Source: Magnetovibrio blakemorei
Lineage (GTDB): Bacteria; Pseudomonadota; Alphaproteobacteria; Rhodospirillales; Magnetovibrionaceae
Direction: 5' to 3'
Assembly (NCBI RefSeq): GCF_001746755.1
Contig: NZ_MCGG01000020.1
Span: forward strand, 35,335 to 89,370
Length of the DNA stretch: 54,036 nucleotides
Shown here piece by piece: positions 2 through 4,145 of the stretch. The position numbers and the translations under genes were made by a program. Within the stretch, counting starts at the first letter, position 1; each line of letters starts with the position of its first letter. Under the pieces are notes generated by a model. That model did not search any database. It was not told where the DNA came from and saw only the letters and a list, made by a program, of their open reading frames with translations.

Positions 2-1222
2 GGGGGGGAGCTGATTGTCGGCGGCGCCAAAGTCTTTGGCGATGGTCCGGTGCAGGTGATGTCCAAAGTTGAAACCTCCATTGCGTACTTTAAGCCGGGC
101 TACTTTTCACAAACCCAAACGGTGACGCTCCAGCCGGACGAAACCAAAATGGTGAGCATTGAATTGCAGCGCGAAGTGGGCTCCGTCGAAGTGACGTCGC
201 AGCCCATCGTTGACGTTAAGGTGAATGGTCAGGTAGCGGGCAAAACACCGCTCACATTAAAACTGCCTGCAGTGGCGCAAACCATCGAACTCAGCAAGCC
301 CGGTTACCGCACTATCTCAAAAACGGTGACACCTTCAGCTCAAAAAACGGTAAGCGTGAAAGTTCAATTACAGACCGAATTGACCGCCCGGTTGGCGGCG
401 GCTCCACCTCAATACACCAACAGTGCGGGCATCCGTTTAAAGCTGTTTCACCCAACGGACTTTAACATGGGCGCACCGCGTTCCGAATTGGGCCAGCGCG
501 CCAACGAATTTCAACGCACCATCAAACTCACCAAGCCGTTTTATGCCAGCTTGCATGAAATCACCAAGGAGCAATATGCCAGGTTTAAGGCCAATGGCTC
601 CAGCGCCGGCGCAGATAATTTTCCGGTGACGTCGGTGTCGTGGTCAGATGCGGCGGCCTATTGCAATTGGCTGAGCGCCAAAGAGCACCTGCAGCCCGTA
701 TATGTTTTGCACAGTGATATATTGGCGGGGGTGAATAAATCGGCGGATGGCTATCGGTTGTTGACGGAAGCCGAATGGGAATGGCTGGCGCGTCGTGCGG
801 GTCGCAAAACACAGACGATTTTCCCATGGGGAGACAAGTCGGTCGTGCCGCCCATGAGCGGAAATATCTCTGACGAAAGTGCGCGCGGGCATGCGGATTT
901 TTATGTGCCCAAGTACAACGACGGGCATGCTGAGATGGCCCCCGTCGGCAGCTTTCCGGCAGAACCATCGGGCCTGTTCGATTTGGCGGGCAATGCCGGT
1001 GAATGGGTGCATGACTATTATTCGCTGGAGCCGCCCAATGCGGGCGAGGTCGACGTCGATCCGTTGGGGCCGGACTATGGCGATGCCCATGTGGTGAAAG
1101 GGTCAAGCTGGCGGTCCGGCACGCGCACCGAATTGCGCGGCGCGTATCGGGACGGCTTGAACGGTACGCGCGACGACATCGGCTTTCGCATCGGCAGGTA
1201 TGTGTATGGAGGATCAAAATGA
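2..1222 (+). CDS. PEGA-repeat protein with C-terminal FGE/SUMF1-fold domain (5' partial)
   Basis: The reading frame is open to the window edge, so the true N-terminus lies outside; 406 residues are visible. Two PEGA-type beta repeats lie at about residues 15-105, recognised by the KPGY-type motifs. A formylglycine-generating-enzyme/SUMF1 fold follows at about 140-405 (TEAEWEW, FPWGD, DLAGNAGEWV, GFRIGRYV). In catalytic family members the GSW segment is followed by paired Cys; here it reads GSSWRSGTRTELRGAY, with no Cys. The domain is therefore probably structural or binding rather than an oxidase. The stop overlaps the next start (ATGA), so this is the first visible gene of a co-translated five-gene operon. 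A periplasmic or surface location is inferred from PEGA and from the exported neighbour. Confidence 0.85.
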   Translation, partial: GGELIVGGAKVFGDGPVQVMSKVETSIAYFKPGYFSQTQTVTLQPDETKMVSIELQREVGSVEVTSQPIVDVKVNGQVAGKTPLTLKLPAVAQTIELSKPGYRTISKTVTPSAQKTVSVKVQLQTELTARLAAAPPQYTNSAGIRLKLFHPTDFNMGAPRSELGQRANEFQRTIKLTKPFYASLHEITKEQYARFKANGSSAGADNFPVTSVSWSDAAAYCNWLSAKEHLQPVYVLHSDILAGVNKSADGYRLLTEAEWEWLARRAGRKTQTIFPWGDKSVVPPMSGNISDESARGHADFYVPKYNDGHAEMAPVGSFPAEPSGLFDLAGNAGEWVHDYYSLEPPNAGEVDVDPLGPDYGDAHVVKGSSWRSGTRTELRGAYRDGLNGTRDDIGFRIGRYVYGGSK

Positions 1223-1371
1223 AGCAGCGACCAGAAATCGTGAAAAAAACAATTGTTATTGTGTCCCTTTTTGTGCTCAGCGCCGGGCTGATGGGCATGG
1301 CCTATGCACAGTCCAAAGGGGGTAGTGATTTCAGCCTGAATTCTCCCGCCTCTTTTCCCGTGGATATTTGA
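1219..1371 (+). CDS. Small exported protein (50 aa) of the motor operon
   Basis: An ATG overlaps the upstream stop (ATGA), with GGAGG about six bases before it. The 50-residue product has a classic signal peptide: basic start (MKQRPEIVKK), hydrophobic core at about 11-27, and an AYA-Q cleavage site near residue 30. That leaves a mature peptide of only about 20 residues, rich in Ser and Gly. It is followed two bases later by the proton-channel gene. No family is recognised. Its conserved-looking placement suggests a small periplasmic accessory or peptide ligand of the neighbouring complex (inference). Confidence 0.7.
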   Translation: MKQRPEIVKKTIVIVSLFVLSAGLMGMAYAQSKGGSDFSLNSPASFPVDI

Positions 1372-1372
1372 T

Positions 1373-2140
1373 ATGACACCTATGATCAAAAGTCTCATTG
1401 CGTTGGTGCTGTCCATCATCGGCGTTCACTTGGTCTACATTGGCTACGTGCGTCCCGAAGCCCAATTGGCGCTGGAAGCCGCACGGCAAATGGGGCAATC
1501 CGCGCCCCGCGATCTGGTCGTGATTTTGAAAGATTACGAGCAAGAAATTTGCCTCATCTTGATGTTCTGGGGCGCGTTTCTGATTTTGGAAAAATGCGTC
1601 GCCATTTTAAAAGACCGCTACTTGTTCACCATCGATTTGCTGGACGGCGCGTCAGAACACGTTGAAGATTTAAAATCCGTGTTGAAGGCGCTGGGTGACT
1701 TGCCTGAGAAGGTCAGAGATACGCCGCTGGTGCGCACCTTGATGTCGAGCGTGCGCCGCTTCTTGATCACGTCGGACGTGCACAATACATCCGAAGCGAT
1801 TGAATCGAGCGTGGAAACGCTGGCCGTCAAACAAGAGGCGGAAAACTCCATGATCCGCTATCTGATCTGGGCCATTCCGTCGATCGGATTTATCGGCACC
1901 GTGCGCGGTATCGGCCAAGCCTTGTCCATGGCCGACAAAGCCTTGGCCGGCGACATTGCGGGCATGACCGACAGTTTGGGCGTGGCGTTCAACTCGACCT
2001 TGGTGGCGTTGCTGATCAGCATCGGCTTGATGTTTTTGCTCCACCAATTGCAACGCTTGCAGGACGGCTTGGTGGTAGACACCCAAGCCTATTGCGAAAC
2101 GTTTCTGCTCAATCGCATCAGCACCGTAGGTTCAAACTGA
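1373..2140 (+). CDS. MotA/TolQ/ExbB-family proton channel protein
   Basis: This 255-residue inner-membrane protein has four predicted helices at about 6-25, 57-77, 160-180 and 204-226. The helix 3 segment IPSIGFIGTVRGI and the helix 4 segment GVAFNSTLVALLISIG match the two proton-pathway helices of TolQ, ExbB and MotA, including small and Thr residues at the pore-lining positions. A cytoplasmic helical loop of about 80 residues lies between helices 2 and 3. In known systems such a protein forms a pentameric ring around a dimer of MotB/ExbD-type subunits. The two genes that follow supply such helices, so this is probably the stator or rotor of a proton-driven machine. It starts two bases after the small peptide gene. 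Confidence 0.88.
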   Translation: MTPMIKSLIALVLSIIGVHLVYIGYVRPEAQLALEAARQMGQSAPRDLVVILKDYEQEICLILMFWGAFLILEKCVAILKDRYLFTIDLLDGASEHVEDLKSVLKALGDLPEKVRDTPLVRTLMSSVRRFLITSDVHNTSEAIESSVETLAVKQEAENSMIRYLIWAIPSIGFIGTVRGIGQALSMADKALAGDIAGMTDSLGVAFNSTLVALLISIGLMFLLHQLQRLQDGLVVDTQAYCETFLLNRISTVGSN

Positions 2141-3201
2141 GACGGCGGCGTTCCATCGAAGGGTTAAATCTGGCCTTTTTGGACATCATGTCCTGCGGGC
2201 TGGGGGCCATTATTTTGGTCTTTATGTTGGTCAAGCACAACGTCGACAATTCATCCGTAGAAAGCGAGTTGCTCAGCGCCGATTTGAGCCGCTTGGAAAG
2301 CCAACAAAAGGCCTTGCGCGACAGCTTGGCGGAGGTGCAGGGGCAAACCGCTGCGGCCGAAGGCGGCGTCGCTGCCAGCTCTGCGGAAATTGCCCGCTTG
2401 AAGGCCGCCCTCGCCCAGCAAAAAGCGGCTAACGCCAAAGACATGGCGCAGCTGAAACGCTTAGAGCAAACCATCAAAACCACCGAAGTCGCCAAACCGG
2501 CAGACGTCATCGCCAAAGATTCTGTGGGGGAACAAAACTACGTTATGGGTTTGAAGGTCGAGGGCCAACGCATCGCCATCTTGCTTGATGCCAGTGCGTC
2601 CATGACGGACGAAAAACTGCTCGACGTGATCCGCCGTAAAACCGGATCGGACGCCGACAAACGTCAGGGACCAAAGTGGAAACGCAGTCAGGAAATTGTC
2701 AGATGGTTGTTGGCGCGCTTGCCAAAAGATGCCGACGTTTCCGTCATCGCCTTTAACGACAAGGCCAAAGTGATGGGCCCAAAAGCGTGGGTGCCAGCGC
2801 GCGATGCCAACGCCTTGGGGGCGATTTTTCAAAGTGTGCAAGCGGTGGTGCCCAGCGGCCCAACCAATCTGCAAAAAGGCTTGATGGAACTGACAGCCCA
2901 TAAACCCAGCAACGTCTACATCATCACCGACGGCCTGCCGACGGATGGTGAATCCAATTACCGCAGCCTCAATCCGTTCGCCAGTTGCGGTTCGTTGCTG
3001 CGCAAAGCGACCACCATTTCCGGCGAATGTCGGGTCAAGCTGTTTCGTCAAACCTTGGCCGAAAGCGCGCCGCGACCGGGCGTGGTGGTAAACGTGATCT
3101 TGTTGCCCATCGAAGGCGATCCCGAAGCCTCCCCGGAATTTTGGGTGTGGACGGCGGACACGGGTGGATTGCTCATCACGCCTGCGGAGAACTGGCCATG
3201 A
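2092..3201 (+). CDS. Membrane-anchored VWA-domain protein with MotB/ExbD-like helix (first copy)
   Basis: The order is a basic N-terminus, one transmembrane helix (LAFLDIMSCGLGAIILVFML, about residues 27-46), a coiled coil at about 55-125, then a VWA domain. The MIDAS motif is intact: DASAS at 166-170, a Thr in GPTN near 257 and ITDG near 279. The Asp in FLDIMSCG sits where ExbD/MotB carry the proton-binding Asp. The start is uncertain: the TTG at 2092 overlaps the channel gene by 49 bases, while homology with the next gene suggests initiation nearer 2137, at a weak CTG. The domain order implies a periplasmic VWA adhesion or binding module driven by the proton channel (inference). Confidence 0.82.
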   Translation: MRNVSAQSHQHRRFKLRRRRSIEGLNLAFLDIMSCGLGAIILVFMLVKHNVDNSSVESELLSADLSRLESQQKALRDSLAEVQGQTAAAEGGVAASSAEIARLKAALAQQKAANAKDMAQLKRLEQTIKTTEVAKPADVIAKDSVGEQNYVMGLKVEGQRIAILLDASASMTDEKLLDVIRRKTGSDADKRQGPKWKRSQEIVRWLLARLPKDADVSVIAFNDKAKVMGPKAWVPARDANALGAIFQSVQAVVPSGPTNLQKGLMELTAHKPSNVYIITDGLPTDGESNYRSLNPFASCGSLLRKATTISGECRVKLFRQTLAESAPRPGVVVNVILLPIEGDPEASPEFWVWTADTGGLLITPAENWP

Positions 3202-4145
3202 AAGCCAAACGCATTCCGCTGGAAATCTTCAGCTTATCGTTTTTGGACGTCATCTCGTGCGGTTTTGGCGCGGTGGTTTTGTTGGTGTTGGTGTCCAATC
3301 ACGCTGACAGCATCACTTCGTCGAGCACAGAGCAGGCCGAGGCCGCACTGAACCAAGTGTTGAGCGCCGAAGACCAGGTTGAAGCTTTAAAAAAGCAGTT
3401 AAGCGCCGAACAAGATGCGCTCAACGCCAAGCAAATTTTGATTGCTCAAATGCAGCAAAGTGCCCAGCAAGCCGAAAGCCAATTATCAGACGACAAAAAC
3501 CAAAATGAAAAACTACAGGCGAATTTAACGGGCCTTTCGCTGGTTGAAACCGCGCTTAAAAAAGCCGCCATTTCGCAAAGATCGACACTGGCGCGCGATG
3601 AAGAAGTCGGCGGCATTCCGGTCGACAGTGATTATGTGGTTTTCATCATCGATACGTCCGGCAGTATGAGGGAAATTTGGAACAGGGTGGCGGCGGAAAT
3701 TGAAAACGTCATCAACATCCACCCCAAAATCAAAGGCTTTCAAATCCTCAACGACAACGGTGTGCATCTGGTTTCGGCCTATCAAGGGCAATGGATACCC
3801 GACACGCCTGCACGTCGCGCCGGGGTTATCAAATTGTTTAAAGGCGGCTGGAACAGCGCGTCAAACAGTAGCCCCGTCGAAGGTTTGGAAACGGCGCTCA
3901 AGCTGTACGCCAAGCCCGACCAGTCGGTGTCGATTTATGTGTTTGGCGATGATTATACGGGCTCGTCGTATGATCCGGTGATCGACACCTTGGTCCGTCT
4001 CAACACCAATAAAGTGACGGGCAAGCCCTTGGCCAAGGTCCACGGGGTTGGCTTTATGTCCAACTACACGACCAACCGTTTCTCGATTTTGATGCGTGAA
4101 GTGGCGAAACGAAACGGCGGAACGTTCTTGGCGCTGCCGCGCTGA
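3198..4145 (+). CDS. Membrane-anchored VWA-domain protein with MotB/ExbD-like helix (second copy)
   Basis: The ATG overlaps the preceding stop (ATGA), which decides this start; 315 residues. It has the same architecture as its neighbour: basic start, helix with Asp17 in LSFLDVISCGFGA, coiled coil at about 40-120, then a VWA domain with DTSGS at 152-156. The later MIDAS positions are less canonical (VFGDDYTGSS in place of a TDG loop), so metal binding may differ from the first copy. Two non-identical helices with the shared FLDxxSCGxGA motif suggest a heterodimeric axle inside the channel ring (inference). It is the last gene of the operon; a convergent SulP gene follows. Confidence 0.84.
   Translation: MKAKRIPLEIFSLSFLDVISCGFGAVVLLVLVSNHADSITSSSTEQAEAALNQVLSAEDQVEALKKQLSAEQDALNAKQILIAQMQQSAQQAESQLSDDKNQNEKLQANLTGLSLVETALKKAAISQRSTLARDEEVGGIPVDSDYVVFIIDTSGSMREIWNRVAAEIENVINIHPKIKGFQILNDNGVHLVSAYQGQWIPDTPARRAGVIKLFKGGWNSASNSSPVEGLETALKLYAKPDQSVSIYVFGDDYTGSSYDPVIDTLVRLNTNKVTGKPLAKVHGVGFMSNYTTNRFSILMREVAKRNGGTFLALPR

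Follow-up and report, generated by a model that had tools for sequence, protein, structure and literature searches.

What is encoded by the run of tightly packed genes at the left edge of a 54,036-nucleotide stretch of the Magnetovibrio blakemorei genome (contig NZ_MCGG01000020.1, positions 35,335 to 89,370 of the forward strand; the whole stretch is hereafter called the window)? The list of open reading frames (ORFs) gives five tightly packed plus-strand ORFs at window positions 2-4145, and a first-pass annotation had read these as a candidate proton-driven machine. We find that they belong to a conserved unit of eight genes, q1-q8, and that this operon is real, self-contained and thinly but widely spread. 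It probably encodes, at a likelihood that we put at roughly 0.6, a self-contained trans-envelope machine powered by proton motive force (PMF). The basis for this reading is gene content, gene order, conservation, domains and monomer models of q2 and q3. The motor core of the machine is of a kind that has already been predicted, and the whole apparatus with its peptide is new in composition as far as was searched.

An operon of eight genes

The window begins inside q4. A single N at L003:13335, the base just before window position 1 (adding 13335 converts window positions to L003 positions) and beside a G run, breaks the q4 frame in this assembly. The first window ORF is therefore read as the C-terminal part of a longer q4, which relatives carry as one continuous gene. 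The first-pass annotation had supposed that genes were missing at the left edge, and they were found there: the start of q4 and, upstream of it in the same genome, three co-oriented genes, q1, q2 and q3. Thus the five genes originally described are real, but the unit is longer than was proposed. Its features are as follows.

L003:9047-9835, left of the window: q1, secreted-looking protein with a Gly-rich middle (by eye)
L003:9856-11094, left of the window: q2, lipoprotein
L003:11109-12566, left of the window: q3, protein with a transmembrane (TM) helix and TPR
2-1222, +: q4, C-terminal part with PEGA and FGE (SUMF1-fold) domains; no start in the window, the gene beginning at L003:12553 with an N-terminal hydrophobic stretch
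1219-1371, +: q5, 50-residue exported peptide with a hydrophobic N-terminus and the free C-terminus SFPVDI
1354-1368, +: C-terminal FPVDI of q5; FP[VIL]DI is present in 78/78 q5 found by hidden Markov model (HMM), and by eye in L115, L116 and L028
1373-2140, +: q6, TolQ/ExbB/MotA-type channel, 255 residues
1898-1900, +: Thr176 of q6 (GFIGTVRG)
1997-1999, +: Thr209 of q6 (AFNST)
2137-3201, +: q7, first vWA axle protein, about 354 residues from a putative CTG start, with a hydrophobic helix, a coiled-coil-like part and a vWA domain
2182-2184, +: axle Asp of q7 (FLD)
3198-4145, +: q8, second vWA axle protein, 315 residues
3246-3248, +: axle Asp17 of q8 (FLD)

Intergenic gaps from q1 to q8 range from -14 to +20 bases, given the inferred start of q7. 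The tight packing noted in the window was borne out, with four-base ATGA overlaps at 1219 and 3198 and a 1-base gap between q5 and q6; the overlap of q6 and q7 at 2137, however, is CTGA and not ATGA.

Genome contigs were scanned with q6, and the best 80 of 388 q6 relatives, chosen by q6 similarity, were kept (L038-L117). All eight genes were detected by HMM in 60 of the 80 loci; by gene, q6 was present in 80, q4 in 79, q5 in 78, q7 in 77, q8 in 75, q3 in 73, q2 in 69 and q1 in 64. Among the remaining 20 loci, 18 lack only genes lying past the contig end, and L115 and L116 have a q5 that was recognised by eye. In 79/80 loci the genes that are present keep their order and strand. Conservation beyond close relatives had been set beforehand as a test of the proposed machine, and the operon does extend past them: locus titles span Alpha-, Zeta-, Gamma-, Beta- and Deltaproteobacteria, and a gene order kept across loci titled from five proteobacterial classes places the arrangement beyond chance. 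The 80 loci are not mutually independent: L055 appears identical to L056, and L061 almost identical to L062. Many of the loci come from metagenome-assembled genomes (MAGs), and the record titles of a few are unspecific or unexpected (Proteobacteria; Candidatus Binatota).

Within the class, a q6 query at 1e-12 matched 16 of 385 genomes, ten of them strongly (the source genome included) and six weakly. In the nine other strong genomes the eight genes follow one another as they do in the source genome, the q5 of L028 being identified by eye. A q2 profile matched exactly these ten of the 385 genomes, a two-way co-occurrence in which three of the ten had contributed sequences to the profile (L046, L052 and L092, the same loci as L023, L030 and L025). 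In the phylum scan, a q6 profile at 1e-20 matched 16 of 398 genomes, 13 of these from one family.

Since no gene family keeps a constant position next to the 80 loci, q1-q8 are taken as the unit. A conserved flanking gene was sought among ORFs of at least 110 residues and rejected: the two largest clusters (14/80 loci each), which resemble by eye ABC-transporter ATPases and membrane sensor proteins, occur at scattered distances and strands, and the next cluster covers five loci. A plasmid-borne origin was likewise rejected, there being no plasmid match for the DNA or for q8 and one weak Rhizobium match for q6 (29.4% identity).

Five proteins from each of 79 loci were concatenated, and the resulting midpoint-rooted tree, read for its topology, separates two clades. 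In it, Nitrosomonadaceae MAGs group with loci of Desulfobacterota, and a Pseudodesulfovibrio MAG groups with those of Alphaproteobacteria (L070, L071, L076, L106); either cassette transfer or misbinning would explain these placements. The operon at L107:7888-16608 is complete, though broken into two blocks in convergent orientation. Other Alphaproteobacteria have distant tolQ loci (L031-L036) that lack q1-q5 and in some cases include vWA genes; beside those of L032 and L035 lie genes that resemble, by eye, PP2C phosphatase, Ser/Thr kinase and FHA genes.

Channel and paired vWA proteins

The TolQ/MotA-like channel named in the first-pass annotation is supported by a Pfam match of q6 to MotA_ExbB (PF01618) at 44.6 bits, against a cut-off of 22.9. 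Channels of the MotA/TolQ/ExbB family have two pore-lining threonines. Thr176 and Thr209 of q6 are invariant (81/81 sequences), and we take them, by eye, to be equivalent to the first and second pore threonines of ExbB/TolQ. A conserved Asp in the axle helix, a feature of 5:2 ion-driven motors, is present in every q7 (81/81) and every q8 (76/76) sequence, and the motif FLDxxSCGxGA is common to the two window proteins, in support of the pair of vWA proteins with an Asp in the first helix that had been described. By Pfam, q7 matches VWA_2 at 32.2 bits against a cut-off of 27, while q8, at 19.8 bits, falls under that cut-off and possesses the DTSGS motif. Among 78 q7 sequences, DxSxS is found in 78, [ST]D[GS]LPT in 76, TNL in 74 and a spaced Cys pair in 72; among 76 q8 sequences, DTSGS is found in 74, GD[DE] in 74 and SNSS in 71. 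As the q7 profile also matches q8 (62.6 bits), the two are paralogues. Neither q7 nor q8 matched the ExbD domain (PF02472) in Pfam at E 0.1, and no ExbD gene lies on the contig of the operon. The genome has eight MotA_ExbB matches and two ExbD genes (C11 and C47), each adjoining another channel. A search of the PDB by sequence profile gave no convincing relative of q6 or q8.

CTG is probably the start codon of q7, judging from aligned loci. At the aligned start of 76 loci the codon is CTG in 28, ATG in 21, TTG in 17 and GTG in 10, and in the window it is the CTG at 2137-2139 that overlaps the q6 stop. In the 28 CTG-start loci, no ATG, GTG or TTG is found 16-19 codons ahead of the MSCG motif; some of them have canonical codons further off, such as the TTG at 2092 in the window. 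By title, the CTG-start loci are chiefly from Alpha- and Zetaproteobacteria, and many have the CTG within a CTGA overlap with the q6 stop.

Motors of this kind have been predicted before. In its main text, PMC12204202 (Mol Biol Evol 2025) describes vWA genes that are linked to tolQ homologues in the absence of tolR, predominantly as heterologous pairs, and that carry a TolR/ExbD-like pore helix with a conserved Asp, modelled with AlphaFold 3 (AF3). The family was built on an Idiomarina protein, Proteobacteria are among the carriers, and function was left open. The q1-q8 operon shares with these TPH-vWA/TolQ motors a tolQ-like gene, a heterologous vWA pair with a pore-helix Asp and the lack of tolR, a likeness in described traits. 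None of the words PEGA, formylglycine and sulfatase appears in that main text. Because a TolQ-like channel with paired Asp-bearing vWA axles had been predicted there, the idea of the q6-q7-q8 core is not new, and the earlier statement that no characterised system has this composition is not supported as worded; the precedent for a vWA-axle motor is itself a model-based prediction. There is no mention of vWA in PMC12505986 or PMC9389320. PMC7159879, in the part of its text that was covered, treats other conflict systems in which FGE and PEGA domains occur, with no MotA or TolQ. Among the papers listed in the literature searches, which took in few subscription journals and neither supplements nor preprints, none was seen to describe the set of eight genes, the peptide or the gammaproteobacterial form with an extra gene.

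Zorya anti-phage systems likewise combine a channel of this superfamily with an axle subunit, and q6 gives a weak ZorA match (E 0.017). We nevertheless think it very unlikely that the operon is a Zorya-like defence. Among the five window proteins scanned (q1-q3 being outside that scan), none gave a PADLOC match better than E 0.01. Furthermore, the operon is essentially absent from plasmids, and it includes a lipoprotein and periplasmic parts.

Envelope proteins and the exported peptide

Pfam assigns PEGA repeats and an FGE-sulfatase domain (FGE, formylglycine-generating enzyme) to q4. The active-site cysteine pair of FGE lies near the C-terminus, in what corresponds to the last aligned stretch of q4 (residues 360-406 of the window q4). 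Because this stretch is free of Cys in 78/80 sequences, with one Cys each in L064 and L106, q4 is very likely not an FGE enzyme. The sequence thus agrees with the non-catalytic FGE-fold partner that had been proposed. In the PDB, the domain matches best two chains annotated 'Lipoprotein, putative' (54.1 and 54.0 bits); PorK comes next at 53.7 bits, slightly ahead of the FGE chains (51.7 for human FGE), a small margin. In NCBIfam it scores best against GldK (TIGR03525), at 76 bits against a cut-off of 350, and so falls outside that family.

The GldKLMN/PorKLMN apparatus of type 9 secretion and gliding also joins a PMF motor to an FGE-fold protein. These matches might suggest a secretion or gliding machine like type 9, in which q4 would take the part of GldK/PorK and q6-q8 that of GldLM. 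However, the score of q4 is far under the GldK cut-off, the margin in favour of PorK is narrow, NCBIfam at E 0.1 matches none of q6, q7 and q8 to GldL or GldM, and q4 possesses an N-terminal hydrophobic stretch and PEGA repeats. Such an assignment is accordingly considered improbable.

A lipobox by strict pattern is present in 62/70 q2 sequences. The q2 monomer model (mean pLDDT 77) has an alpha/beta N-domain and a long helical hairpin; its best Foldseek matches were a chain of the flagellar LPHT ring (8z5n, presumably FlgT; E 8.8e-5), HpaA (7.7e-4), LptE and TolB, all with low TM-scores. No Pfam family was reported above cut-off for q2; TraT, the best candidate (4/44 members, E 0.0052), was rejected. 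The q3 monomer model (mean pLDDT 89) comprises a TM helix, a linker, a TPR-like solenoid and a C-terminal beta domain, and its Foldseek matches are led by TPR proteins, again with low TM-scores.

Two further comparisons follow from these parts. Tol-Pal (TolQRA-TolB-Pal-CpoB) is a motor driven by PMF whose parts include a lipoprotein and a TPR protein. The operon has both, and the N-terminal part of q2 matches TolB by Foldseek, weakly; it differs in that q7 and q8 are without an ExbD/TolR match, that the axle ends in vWA, and that an FGE/PEGA protein and the FPVDI peptide are added. The likeness to the flagellar stator and LPHT ring lies in the class of motor and in the weak q2 match, and no flagellar gene was seen in the operon.

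In the first clade, q5 is short and has a hydrophobic N-terminus. A-x-A was found by loose pattern in 55/78 q5 sequences, not always at a likely cleavage place. Over all q5 ORFs, length and sequence are variable, from about 40 to 146 residues. The C-terminus, however, is nearly invariant. Of 12,015 ORFs examined (L038-L117, L133-L149 and L031-L036), 93 end in FP[VILAT]DI, and all 93 occupy the q5 slot, 79 labelled as q5 by HMM and 14 by position. Since the rest of q5 varies while its last residues do not, these residues are taken as the working end of the peptide, which would point to one precise contact. The metal-ion-dependent adhesion site (MIDAS) of vWA domains takes an acidic ligand. For the MIDAS domain of Mdn1, catch bonds under load are reported in the portion of PMC8837202 that was covered. 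A second P-x-D-I ligand in q1 was considered and dropped, being present in 65/78 sequences overall but in only 5/14 of the gammaproteobacterial clade.

Gammaproteobacterial loci and the proposed machine

Among 369 gammaproteobacterial genomes, 37 give a match at 1e-15: five above 350 bits, 26 at 197-268 and six below 85. The second clade was sampled through 14 of the 26 intermediate matches and two loci from the phylum scan, 16 mid-score loci in all, plus one low-score locus. Genes q1-q4 and q6-q8 are present in 13 of the 16. The q5 slot holds, in 14/16, a secreted-looking ORF of 70-146 residues ending in F/Y-P-x-D-I (YPVDI in L149); no such ORF was seen in the slot in L140 and L144. The order differs in L143 and L145, where q8 precedes q6, and in L145 a long insertion separates q3 from q4. 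At L147, the locus with the low score, nothing was matched beyond q6 except for two very weak hits.

An extra gene of about 430-460 residues is present in 12 of the 16 loci (L133, L135, L136, L138, L139, L141, L142, L143, L145, L146, L148 and L149), between q6 and q7 in ten. It shows weak Pfam matches to FHA, in the C-terminal part of 3/12 members, and to Hsp70 in 1/12, and a profile search gave DnaK at E 0.0022. Such a gene could relay a signal, as would be expected of a PMF-gated sensor or valve in which q6-q7-q8 conduct protons once the vWA heads bind an envelope ligand, thereby reporting envelope state. PEGA, FGE and vWA are all binding folds, and the failure to find a conserved neighbour gene would also suit a sensor. 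The first clade, however, has no FHA/Hsp70-like gene in the operon, and the conserved periplasmic tower and lipoprotein would fit force transmission better. We regard the sensor as unlikely.

In the trans-envelope machine that we favour, topology, stoichiometry, proton flow, rotation, contacts and outcome would be as follows. Five q6 subunits would surround the N-terminal helices of a q7-q8 heterodimer and make up a proton channel, and proton transfer via the two axle aspartates, beside the threonine rings, would turn the pair. The axle would extend as a coiled coil and raise two vWA (MIDAS) heads into the periplasm, where they may act on a tower of q3 (TM helix, TPR solenoid and C-terminal beta domain), q4 (TM helix, PEGA repeats and a non-enzymatic FGE/GldK-like domain) and the lipoprotein q2. 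The exported q5 would serve as a ligand, its free C-terminal FPVDI being gripped by an assembly partner, most plausibly a vWA MIDAS. The predicted outcome is force delivered to the outer membrane, for surface export or envelope remodelling. A bolder and tentative version, to which we give a low probability, is a rotary machine whose two vWA/MIDAS heads mechanically grip the exported peptide by its C-terminal FPVDI, with the Asp as metal ligand. This grip would be a force-dependent clutch between the inner-membrane motor and the PEGA/FGE/TPR/lipoprotein tower, found in several proteobacterial classes and, beyond the motor core, unlike Tol, Ton, Mot, Gld and Zorya.

Several observations weigh against the machine as drawn. 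The system is rare, with q6 matches in two of the six genomes of the genus and strong ones in 10/385 of the class, and its neighbours give no indication of an output. L140 has a relative of q6 but is missing every other gene of the set; q1 and a recognisable q5 are missing from L144, and q2 from L145. With the q6 profile, no relative of solved structure is found at E 0.01, the fold matches of q2 are weak (TM-score by query length 0.14-0.23), and the structure models are of single proteins only, q2 and q3. The contact between MIDAS and FPVDI is a guess.

These results provide a parts list for an envelope motor whose core was in print as a tolQ-vWA pair, and the motor can now be tested. The groups that carry it include, by record title, Mariprofundus, Methylophaga and Rhodospirillales. 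Cultivable carriers from the environment are Methylophaga sulfidovorans (L082), M. aminisulfidivorans (L086), Aestuariispira insulae (L092) and Denitrobaculum tricleocarpae (L052). If the proposed reading is true, these bacteria would have another machine that exerts force in the periplasm besides Tol-Pal and Ton, which would bear on how Gram-negative bacteria energise the outer membrane.

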